A stretch of 64,000 nt of DNA, from contig OZ024866.1 of assembly GCA_964017155.1 (NCBI GenBank), forward strand, positions 24,232,230 through 24,296,229, given 5' to 3'. How positions within the stretch are numbered: position 1 is the stretch's first letter; each line of letters opens with the position of its first letter. The notes beneath the pieces are model-generated. The model saw only the letters and a program-made list of their open reading frames with translations. It made no database searches and had not been told where the DNA came from. The stretch is from Oasisia sp. SBJ-2009 (taxonomy: Eukaryota; Annelida; Polychaeta; Sabellida; Siboglinidae). A program made the translations under genes and the position numbers. Of the stretch, positions 45,101-51,100 are shown piece after piece.

Positions 45101-48100
45101 ATCATAATAATAATATATTTATTTGCGCCACATCCATAATCGTTCATGGTGCTTCACAATATATTACAATTTAAAAGACATAAAAATATACATGTATACG
45201 ATAAGACAACTACTAGTGTTTAAAAAAATTAAAGATATATACAGGTATATATAGGTATTTACATAAATAAAATTAGTATGGTATTAAATAGCGTAGCACT
45301 TTTAAATAAATAAATAAATTACATATTAATCATAAAAATACATAATAATCTAGTTTATAATTACATTACAATTATACTGATAAATTACGGTATAGGTATA
45401 ATTATTATTAATAATAAATAGTTAGTATATGTTAAAACTTTTAAAAATAATAATAATAATTACATAACAATAATGCCAATAAATACGTGTATAATTATGT
45501 ATTGATAATATTACCAATAAATTTCTCATTTCTATGAACAGGATGTGCAGTGCTCGCCCAGTGGAAGGACCACAACTACTACCCAGGTCATGTGATCTGT
45601 CCCGGGAAGCGGGCGGGTCGCTACACGGTCGCCTTCGAGGATGGGGACGTCCTACAGGTCATGACCTCTCACCTTATCCACTGTGACCTTGTCTGGGTCG
45701 GCGAGGATGTTTTTGCCGAGACTTCTGAAGGCTGGAGTGAGCAAGCGGTTATTCAAGGTCATTACCGTGACGACGAGGGTCAAGGTTATCTCGTGAAGTT
45801 TCACACGGGTGTCGAGGCCAGGTTCGTTGGTAGTTTGTGTCGTCAACACTAGATGGCGTGCAGATAAATTCGTTGTCAACTGGTTTTAATGGGTTGTATT
45901 AAAATGCAGTGGTAAAGTCAGCCAATTTTCAGCTGCCTAAAAGTACCAAAAAAAAATATTTTCTTATCCAAAAAGCATGGTCTTTATGTGCTTTATGGAA
46001 TCAGTAAAAGTAGTAGATAATATCTAAACATAAAACAGCCATATCTAAAATATAAATAACATAATATCTAAAATAACATGATATCTAATATTTTATCCCG
46101 TTATTAATTGTTATGGTTTAAGGACGTTGAATGTTCGAATGCCTGCATTCACTATGGTACCGCCAGGCGTCAAACACAACACTTGTGGATCTCTGCTTTA
46201 ACCAAGGAACCAAGTATCCGTACAAGTCTGTTAGTAAACATTTTATGTTTTATTTTATATACAAGGAAAATACAAATGTACATATCGCTGTGTGGTGTTA
46301 TCACTTGTGTGCAATATACAATATTTTATTATATTGACTATGTATCAACTTTAAGCGTTATACAGCTGTATTTATTGTATATATTATATTCTGTGATGTT
46401 GTAATATTCAGCCTCGGCTTCTATAATAGGAATAGACGTATTATTATAAAGTCAATGAACCGCGACACCTTCCAGAGTACCGCGACGTGGTGTCATGCTC
46501 AAACACCACCAGGCGGAGGCACTGGTCGCAGCAATGGCCGCCGAAGCGCAGTCGACAAGGGACCCAGCAGCGCCTCCTACAGGAGACATTGGTGAATCAG
46601 CGCCACCTGGTGGACAGGAAGAACAACCGGCAGAGGAAACACCAGATGGCGCCAGCGTGGCAGAAGGTAACACATATTGTGTAATTCTTTTAATTAATGT
46701 TTATTTATATTTTTATATTTTTTAATACAATAATGCTATCGACCTATTTTATATAAACTTTATTTATTATAATCAATATATTTTCTTTTTAAATAATGTT
46801 AAATAATTTATTAATGTAATTGTTTTTATTATTTAAATATTTTATATTTCATTATATTTTAATAATATGTATTTGTTTATACTTACAGTTTATTTTTATC
46901 TATTTATTACTACTGTGGTTATATTTATATTGTTGTGAACTATATATTTTACCTAAAGCTTTATTGTATGTATGTATATGATCTATATATGCATGTAAGA
47001 TGGCCCATTGAAAATCACAATATACCATGTGACATGGTTACCATCAAGAAATAAAGCTTTTACTATACTGTTATTACTGAGCATTTCTCAGGATAGTTGT
47101 TTTTTAGATCGCAAATTTACATGTTACACAATCAATTCAAGATGTATCTTTAATAGTTGCTTCTTGACTTGGTTATGCAAAATTAATATCTGTCGTGTTT
47201 AGGTTGTCCATCACAACGGTCACATGACCAGATGGCCGTAGTCACGATGCCAATCTAAATGACCTGTCCTTCAGAACAGACGATTGGTAGTGTATAAATG
47301 ACTTGATGTAATCGGCATGGTTAGATATAATTCCAAAGTATTCGTATATATCAAGTGTTTGACTGAATATGCCACGGCTTGGGTGATAATTCCAATTTAT
47401 TACATAATTTGGAACGGGTTTAGATTTGCGAAAACATTCTTATGTAAATGAAAATAAACCGTACAATTACTCCACATGGTAGTTTCCTGGGCAAGGGGTG
47501 ACGTTTTATCCCAATTTGTCAACATATTGTGGCCTTGTGTAGTAGGTATCAACATACACTGATTCAAATGATGGGACTGTTTCAGCATCCCTGTCATGTG
47601 ACTACGAACCTCTGCCTCCTCAACCTGCGACTGGCGCGTTACTTGAAGGTCAGTTAAGGGACAATACAACCTTGTTTGTTGTCAGTCAGTGTTTGTTGAG
47701 CAGAGAACAAGGAATGTTGGATAAGACCATGATGTGTATGATGTATTATGATGTGTATGATATATTGTGATGTCACTGATGTGTATGATGTATTGTGATG
47801 TGTATGATGTACTGTATACAACAGAATTCACATAATTGTTGTGTTGTGTTGTGTTGTGTTGTGTTGTGTTGTGTTGTGTTGTGTTGTGTTGTGTTGTGTT
47901 GTGTTGTGTTGTGTTGGGTTGGGTTGGGTTGGGTTGGGTTGGGTTGGGTTGGGTTGGGTTGGGTTGGGTTGGGTTGGGTTGGGTTGGGTTGGGTTGTGGG
48001 GACTATTAAAGGTTACTGTATTGTATTGTATTGTATTGTATTGTATTGTATTGTATTGTATTGTATTGTATTGTATTGTATTGTATTGTATTGTATTGTA

Positions 48101-51100
48101 TTGTATTGTATTGTATTGTGCTGAATGATTTAGTGTGATTTATTTACTAATTTTAGTACATATTAGTAATGTTATTGTGTTTAACAAAATACCTTTAAGA
48201 TATATTACCTGTTTATTTATTTATTTATTATACTTATTTATTGTACTTTTTGATATACTTAATTTATAAATTTTACAAACGTTTTCAAATTGCAATGTGC
48301 CTTATCAACTGTATATGAATCACCAATCTTATTACTGGCATTTTGATATGTAACTGAAGAAAACAAATTAATATGATGTTTAAAATGGACAATAAAGTCT
48401 TTTGAATCTAAAATATATACCAGTTAAAATGATGGATTTAAAAATAAAAATACTCTGTGTTTCTTCCCAATTCCAATTGCTGTGTTTGTTTACTATCAAT
48501 AACAACAACTTGTATAACAATTACATAACCCAGTATACCTGTTATTCATGGATAAGATTTGAAAACAGCGTTTCGGTAACATGAACTTACATCACTTCAT
48601 AACTTAAAATTATATGGCCTGACTTGTTCTTGTGAATATTCTCAACAATCCGCAATTTTGTTTTTGTTTTTTGCTTGAAGTAATGTTTAATATAAAACAC
48701 CCCATACATGTGTTGCTTCAGGCACCCAGGTAATGGCAATGTGGCAGGACAAACACTTCTACCCTGGTCATGTGACCGCCTGTCACCCAGAGGGCGCCAG
48801 GTACACTGTGACCTTCGAGGATGGAGACGTTCTCAAGGTCGCGGAGTCGGACATGTTTGTCTGCGAGTTGCTCGCCGTGAAGCAGAATGTGTTTGCCGAC
48901 TTCGTCGAAGGATGGTTCAAACCAGCAACCGTCATTGGTCACTACAGTAACCATGGCAACGGTAGCCATGACAATAAAAATGGCTACATTGTCAAGTTTG
49001 CCGATGACAACAGTACATTGCAGTAAGTTATTTTTGTTTTTATCTCTGTTTCTGATCTTGTTGTGCTGAAGATACAGAAGACTGAGTACATTGTAAACCA
49101 GTTGAAATTAGTTATGAAGATTAGTGTCATATTTTTGGTTGAGAGATTTCGTCTGTAATAATTTATAGGCAGTACCGGTATGTTTATTTCGGACAAAAAT
49201 ACAATACTTAAAAAACAACTAAAACAGTTATGGGGTATAAAGAAAAATAATAAATAAGTGGGTAATAAAAGTAAATAAATAGGTCATGAAATTAAATTGA
49301 ATAAGTGATTAAAATGATTATTAAAAAATACAATAACTAATACAATAACATATTATGTGTACAATAGGGTATCCAGTATGTGTACATTGTATGTATACCG
49401 ATATGAAAGTAATTGACAAATAAAAATATAATTTCAGGAGTAGTGGAATGTTAAATTATAGTTGTTTATTTAGTAAATTATTGCTTTTTGTCAGTCTGCC
49501 GAGGTCAAAGGTTAACCTGAGTCCAAAGCAGGCGGCTGAGGTGCTGAGGTCATTTGGCGAGTGGTGCACGACCCCCCAGAACAGAGGCATGGTGAACGTC
49601 TCTCTCGGTACGGTATTTCTACTTCTTCCTCTTCCTCTTCCTCTTCCTCTTCCTCTTCCTCTTCCTCTTCCTCTTCCTCTTCCTCTTCCTCTTCCTCTTC
49701 CTCTTCCTCTTCCTCTTCCTCTTCCTCTTCCTCTTCCTCTTCCTCTTCCTCTTCCTCTTCCTCTTCCGCTTCCGCTTCCTCCTCCTCCACCTCCACCTCC
49801 TCCTTCTCCTTCTCCTTCTCCTTCTCCTTCTCCTTCTCCTCCTCATCCTCATCCTCCTCCGCCTTCTCCTCCTTCTCCTTCTCCTCCTGCTCCTCCTCCT
49901 TCTTCTCTCCTCCTCCTCCTCCTCCTTCTCCTTCTCCTCCTCCTCCTCCTCCTCCTCCTCCTTCTCCTTCTTCTTCTCCTCCTTCTCCTCCTCCTCCTCC
50001 TCCTCCTCCTCCTCCTCCTCCTCCTCCTCCTCCTCCTCCTCCCCCTTGTCATGCAAATGAGGGTACGTGTATAAGTATATAGTTAGATATATATCATTTC
50101 AAAGTTGATGTACATAGCAATACTTTTTTTTTTGCTAATGTAGAATGTAAATTTGTTTGTTGCGAAATAAAATTTGATTTGATTTGATTCTGGATTACGA
50201 ATCTAATTCAATTGCTCAGTGACAGCTGTTGTAACCTTAGTGTTGTTTATTAACGTGGGTTGGTGTGTAAAAGGAAAAACCTTTGGGATGCTACATCTCT
50301 ACACACTGAAACCCACAAGTAGCTTTAACTGGAAATTATGCAATGTGCTTATTTGAGACAGAACTGCTTGTTTTCTCCTTAGACAATTTGGTGTCGGGGA
50401 AACGTAGAACTCGAGGCACACCGACAGTGTCTTCAAGCCTTCCACGAAGTTCACGAAAACAACGAATCACACACGAGACCACATCCGAAAACCCCCCAGC
50501 CCCCCAGTCGACCCCCGCCACCACGACAGGGGGTGGACACGAAACTTCAACAATTCCGTTCGTCAGCGTTATTGAAAAAGAAGAAATCGGTCAACTGGCA
50601 CCTACTTGCGAAAGGTCGAGTTTACGGGAGATGGAAGAACAGTCGGCGTCCACTAAAAAGAGACCTGGGAGACCGGCATTGGGAACAGCTGAGAAACGCA
50701 GCAAGAAGCAGCAGACGGAACCGAAAGCTACGAGTACGCCGACGCCAAAACGTGGGCGCCCTCGGAAACAGCAGACAGAAGGTACGTACTACACTGAGTG
50801 GTGTGAGGAGGGACAGATACGTAGTGTGTTATTTACACCCTTGAATATGATTTTTATACGGATACATAGCTAGCCCATAATATTTTTTTTTTAACTTTCA
50901 ATATTATCATTTTGTGTGGATACCTAGCTAGCCAGCAATATGTTATGTTCAAATGTTTGAATATGATTTTTGTGCAAAGAACTACCTAGCACACATTATA
51001 TTCTTTTCAGACTTTTGAATATGATTTTTGTACGCATACATAGTAGCCTGCATCAACTTATTTTCATACTTCTAAATATGATTTTTGTATATATACATAG

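Follow-up and report, generated by a model that had tools for sequence, protein, structure and literature searches.

A 53BP1 gene encoding two complete tandem-Tudor modules in the annelid Oasisia sp.

A stretch of 64,000 nucleotides from contig OZ024866.1 (C13) of the annelid Oasisia sp. SBJ-2009, referred to here as the window, carries a gene for 53BP1, a protein that guides the repair of broken DNA and helps to decide between end joining and resection. Within positions 45542-49607 of the window, the gene encodes two complete and unlike tandem-Tudor modules, A and B. The usual architecture of 53BP1, with one such module per chain, is not what is found here, as both modules lie in one open frame.

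The two tandem-Tudor modules

Each module is encoded by a pair of exons, and a short linker exon sits between the two pairs. The closing strand and helix of each module are assigned by alignment and are given as predictions.

Exon A1, 45542..45821, + strand: both Tudor cores of module A; 280 nt; entry phase 1, exit phase 2; AG/GT borders
Exon A2, 46476..46666, + strand: predicted closing strand and helix of module A, then linker; 191 nt; exit phase 1; AG/GT borders
Exon L, 47586..47648, + strand: 63-nt linker exon of class 1-1, between modules A and B
Exon B1, 48722..49022, + strand: both Tudor cores of module B; 301 nt; entry phase 1, exit phase 2; AG/GT borders
Exon B2, 49495..49607, + strand: predicted closing strand and helix of module B, then the start of a UDR-like (H2A-ubiquitin-reading) motif; 113 nt; exit phase 1

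The four Tudor exons had been proposed in an initial annotation of the window, and they proved exact to the base with AG/GT borders present. Both pairs also have the phase pattern described there (entry 1, internal 2, exit 1), which makes each module a symmetric 1-1 cassette compatible with in-frame duplication. An alternative A1 donor 8 bases downstream was dropped because reading the frame through it gives a stop at the start of B1. That two complete tandem-Tudor modules are encoded, as the same annotation had held, agrees with the Pfam family PF09038 (53-BP1_Tudor), in which A scores 30.4 bits and B 24.5 bits against a cut-off of 22, and with the joined protein, where PF09038 and Tudor_3 each give two stretches. 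The modules are spaced about 60 residues apart (model residues about 497-555).

Searches of the PDB link both modules to 53BP1, though by different routes. Module A matches 53BP1 tandem-Tudor chains with a best E of 1.2e-6 over residues 3-105, and of the 23 distinct sequences listed at E<=1, the top 13 are 53BP1. Module B alone is closest to the Tudor of PHF20 (2.8e-5), with 53BP1 at 6.6e-4, and when B is joined to the following exon C, the match to 53BP1 improves to 5.9e-7 and extends across 148 residues, taking in the UDR motif. The joined sequence aligns with 1ssf, 4cri and 5zcj (mouse and human chains) through the SLDNLVxGKR of that motif, while the separate UDR peptide 5kgf aligns with residues 133-148 at an E of 1.1, which is weak alone. 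As B is collinear with 53BP1 up to and including the UDR motif, it is B that occupies the canonical position and A that is extra.

Between the two modules, 49 of 118 aligned residues are identical (42%), and in tblastn searches the A query finds B in the window at 7e-22 and the B query finds A at 3e-22. Compared with human 53BP1, A is identical at 24 of 101 positions and B at 27 of 101. Two traits are common to A and B and absent from the human protein, namely a first-Tudor loop that is one residue shorter and an Asp in place of Y1523.

The 53BP1 gene around the modules

Fifteen exons (D, pre, A1, A2, L, B1, B2, C, E, F, K, G, H, I and J) were chained by hand from AG/GT borders and matching phases, with the 5' end of the gene lying outside the model. 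The chain is one open frame of 1151 residues that ends at a stop at 60019, and it encodes, in order, module A, the linker exon, module B, the UDR-like motif and a tandem BRCT. The exons that flank the modules are as follows.

Exon D, 40190..41217, + strand: long and low-complexity, upstream of the Tudor modules; in frame with AG/GT borders
Exon pre, 43776..43879, + strand: in-frame join to module A
Exon C, 50383..50781, + strand: remainder of the UDR-like motif and basic region
Exon E, 51994..52188, + strand: low-complexity basic region
Exon F, 53587..53727, + strand: start of the BRCT region
Exon K, 55510..55598, + strand: BRCT region
Exon G, 56789..56914, + strand: BRCT region
Exon H, 57778..57851, + strand: BRCT region
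Exon I, 58971..59119, + strand: second BRCT
Exon J, 59817..60019, + strand: end of the second BRCT and stop codon
Upstream exon, outside the chain, 37887..38063, + strand: 177 nt, open, phase 0 to 0

The BRCT region matches human 53BP1 at an E of 1e-45 over residues 8-252 of 260, and Pfam BRCT_3 gives 86.9 bits in the joined protein. Judged by its tandem Tudor, UDR-like motif and BRCT, the gene is 53BP1, and the finding of all three in one frame upholds the earlier naming of a 53BP1-type gene. The upstream exon, which may resemble the 53BP1 oligomerization domain, gave no relevant match in searches of the PDB and Pfam. At exon K, the acceptor is formed by TTTGTTACAG of a repeat of about 34 bp, whose array lies at about 54696-55509 and runs up to the exon, and this arrangement is kept in both copies of the locus described below.

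A search of the whole genome (a 764-Mb, 33-contig assembly) with module B and the UDR-like region returned 8 exon matches, all in this locus and its downstream copy, and no third place with module B was found with that query. The locus is the animal's 53BP1 gene, being the sole place found with both Tudor modules and the upstream exons. No relatives were found in a scan of a prokaryotic genome collection, as expected of an animal gene.

The arrangement departs from that of the better-known homologues. As in human and other vertebrate 53BP1, a tandem Tudor is followed directly by the UDR motif and then by the tandem BRCT, and four of the five cage residues are kept; the human protein differs in having one tandem Tudor, whereas here a second complete module lies about 60 residues upstream and Y1523 is Asp in both modules. 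The initial annotation had held that the human, worm and fission-yeast counterparts have a single tandem Tudor, and for human 53BP1 and worm HSR-9 this is what is reported (PMC3648578). A survey of holozoan Tudor proteins likewise describes TP53BP1 as 'Tandem T0' with BRCT (PMC12147562). Caenorhabditis elegans HSR-9 is described as a 53BP1 homologue with a tandem Tudor and BRCT, but its tandem Tudor fold is reported as single (residues 734-854; PMC3648578). The Pfam SH3_Hsr9 profile is matched by module B over almost its full length, at 25.0 bits, below the cut-off of 27. PHF20, whose Tudor is the closest solved one to the first half of B, is similar over about 40 residues only, and the remaining gene is 53BP1-like.

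Fission yeast Crb2 (Rhp9) resembles the gene in that A and B both score above the cut-off of Tudor_3 (Crb2) and the BRCT region matches 2vxb/2vxc at 1.2e-7. Crb2 is not known to have more than one tandem Tudor. The fission yeast orthologue is described as lacking the UDR motif (PMC11143218). Among the titles and abstract openings searched, with most subscription literature outside the search, no 53BP1 with two tandem-Tudor modules was described.

The second copy of the locus and the age of the modules

A comparison of the neighbourhood in 20 stretches of 10 kb revealed that part of the locus is present twice.

Repeated segment, part in the window, 45517..64000, + strand: about 32 kb in total, extending about 13 kb beyond the end of the window

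The second copy lies 126 kb downstream (C13:24404232-24435735), and the segment starts 25 bases before exon A1. Its upstream end is sharp, with no similarity upstream of 45517 in a low-stringency search. The copy contains each of the 13 exons A1 to J, in frame and with intact splice dinucleotides, whereas neither D nor pre, the two upstream exons sought, turned up in the 160 kb searched beyond the downstream end of the window, a stretch that is partly N. Over 22,443 filtered aligned columns, from which the filter excluded the piece holding exon B1, there are 461 mismatches between the copies, or about 2.1% substitutions, together with 350 gap positions, and the divergence per piece ranges from 0.4% (54866-61078) to more than 10% in repeat-rich stretches. 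Over all exons A1-J, the synonymous divergence (dS) between the copies is 0.027 and the nonsynonymous divergence (dN) 0.011, which gives a dN/dS of about 0.4; over A1+A2 it is 0.33. The one-sided Fisher test gives p values of 0.004 to 0.012 for all exons, depending on the rounding of half counts, and 0.08 for the exons other than A1+A2. The downstream copy is either a young, 5'-truncated duplicate or an unresolved allele. Large short-tandem-repeat arrays lie on the contig between the copies, outside the window.

It might be asked whether the pair of modules is itself an artefact of a duplicated or misjoined locus, or whether one module is a dead relic, and the fact that the assembly holds about 32 kb of the locus twice lends this some ground. 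The initial annotation had named an assembly error that collapsed or duplicated the locus as what would overturn its reading; a second, 5'-truncated copy does exist, but the A/B pair is found there too, and in either copy the two modules stand in order within an intact frame. The downstream copy cannot explain the pair because A and B are only 42% identical, and the codon comparison of A with B gives a dS of about 2.1, near saturation, and a dN of 0.60, as against about 2% between the locus copies. Recent copying or assembly error was ruled out on this divergence as the source of the pair, and an artefact of any of these kinds is very improbable.

Since the synonymous divergence is near saturation, the module duplication is old, and it is constrained. 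The two traits that A and B share to the exclusion of the human protein suggest that the duplication postdates the split from the vertebrate lineage, a suggestion drawn from three sequences without an outgroup. In simulations with indels left out, the 178-codon frame of A1+A2+L evolving without selection was still open in 23 of 2000 runs (1.2%) at 0.3 substitutions per site and in 6 of 2000 (0.3%) at 0.5, which also speaks against a dead relic. Because the frame so rarely survives without selection, A has probably remained coding throughout most of the period that followed the duplication. The second tandem Tudor is an old addition to a known protein, and one that has probably been maintained.

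Two proposed linked readers and the alternatives

We consider it likely, though with some reservation, that an old in-frame duplication of the 1-1 cassette has placed two full readers in one chain and that these bind histone H4 bivalently. The protein would then run from A through a linker of about 60 residues to B, the UDR-like motif and the tandem BRCT, with A and B together in the main mRNA. In favour of this reading, the splice scores of A1 and A2 fall inside the range shown by the other exons of the gene. Module B and the UDR-like motif would most likely take the role of the human module, which is the recognition of methylated H4K20 on a nucleosome with ubiquitinated H2A, and A would most likely bind another methylated H4 tail, belonging either to that nucleosome or to a neighbouring one. 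The avidity of human 53BP1 has been proposed to come from oligomerization and LC8 bridging (PMC12187134), and a second reader would add avidity within one chain on top of oligomerization. A wider view, put forward tentatively as possible rather than likely, is that a whole animal lineage has an ancient 53BP1 with four Tudors, its two linked methyl-lysine readers lying next to one ubiquitin reader, and that damaged chromatin is recognised through intramolecular bivalency as well as through oligomerization.

The methyl-lysine cage of the human protein is reported to consist of W1495, Y1502, F1519, D1521 and Y1523 (PMC5974088), and the first four are kept in both A and B. As W, Y, F and D are kept, the simplest reading is that both modules can read methylated H4K20. 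The human Y1523A change is reported to weaken TIRR binding about 32-fold and to leave H4K20me2 binding unaffected (PMC5974088), and on the same simplest reading a TIRR-like inhibitor would not hold A or B, which have Asp at position 1523, in the human manner. Binding of methylated H4K20 by both modules, the reach between them, and the avidity of bivalent binding are predictions that the cage residues make plausible, and the bridging of two modified H4 tails or two nucleosomes, suggested in the initial annotation for the case that both modules are in one mRNA, is a reasonable idea.

Several observations weigh against two functional readers in one chain. The fifth cage residue, Y1523, is replaced by Asp in both modules. 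B scores below A against 53BP1 in both the PDB and Pfam; the whole-genome PF09038 search (E<=0.001) found the A exons only, here and in the downstream copy, as 2 of the 4 candidates scored, and missed B, which was recovered only with its own sequence as query. Structure predictions of A1 and B1 from two-row alignments were of low confidence (mean predicted local distance difference test scores of 39.8 and 44.6), and no claim is built on the models. Between the locus copies, none of the 13 exons has diverged more than A1, which shows 15 mismatches and 5 gap columns in 281, and the Fisher test for A1+A2 gives p values of 0.017 to 0.055, depending on rounding, so that constraint there is suggestive only. 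The splice signals add to this. The donor of A1 (GTTCGT) falls short of a strong consensus, and the acceptor of L is poor, ranking at the 61st percentile among the AGs of the window. As A, L and B are all of class 1-1, isoforms with A only or B only would also be in frame.

These last features are what might be expected if A and B were alternative or optional cassettes, so that each mature mRNA carries mainly one tandem Tudor and the cell switches between two readers or between forms with and without A; the frame is preserved when pre is joined to L or to B1 and when A2 is joined to B1 or to C. Each cassette comprises two exons with long introns, however, an arrangement in which nothing structural would seem to force exclusion. 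Between the modules there is also a separate coding exon for the linker, which both locus copies retain intact. Alternative use of the cassettes is unlikely on this evidence.

Another possibility is that both modules are present in the protein but divide the work, with one binding methylated H4K20 and the other a different methyl-lysine or protein, and that H4 is not bound bivalently. The identity of 42% between A and B leaves room for this, as do the differing surroundings of the cage (at the positions corresponding to 1547 and 1553, A has E/S and B has D/F) and the closeness of the first Tudor of B to PHF20 among solved structures. The four kept cage residues and the change of Y1523 to Asp are nevertheless identical in A and B, and such a division seems rather unlikely.

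The human tandem Tudors are reported to dimerize weakly, thereby concealing the H4K20me2 surface (PMC10541411), and A and B might similarly pair within one chain and close each other, like the autoinhibited human dimer. Of the six mapped interface residues, R1583 is kept and D1550 and Y1552 show conservative changes in both modules, but K1505, L1518 and E1549 are kept in neither, and we regard intramolecular pairing as improbable.

How the weak histone contacts of 53BP1 sum to stable foci is still under study. The gene shows that a tandem Tudor can be copied whole within this protein. If the reading of two linked H4-binding modules is true, the two copies could let one molecule hold two marked histone tails, and a natural two-reader 53BP1 would offer a ready-made test of intrachain bivalency as a source of avidity.

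A few further elements lie in the window. Upstream of the 53BP1 gene, ankyrin-repeat open frames matching Pfam Ank families occupy 1838-2419 and 4872-6257 on the + strand, and these are presumably FEM1-like. The intron between exons I and J holds an open frame of 163 residues (59151-59639, + strand) that is present in both locus copies, is without a match in a Pfam search and is assumed by us to be LINE-endonuclease-like. A retroelement lies in the intron between exons D and pre, with an open reverse-transcriptase frame of 583 residues (41653-43401, + strand; Pfam RVT_1).

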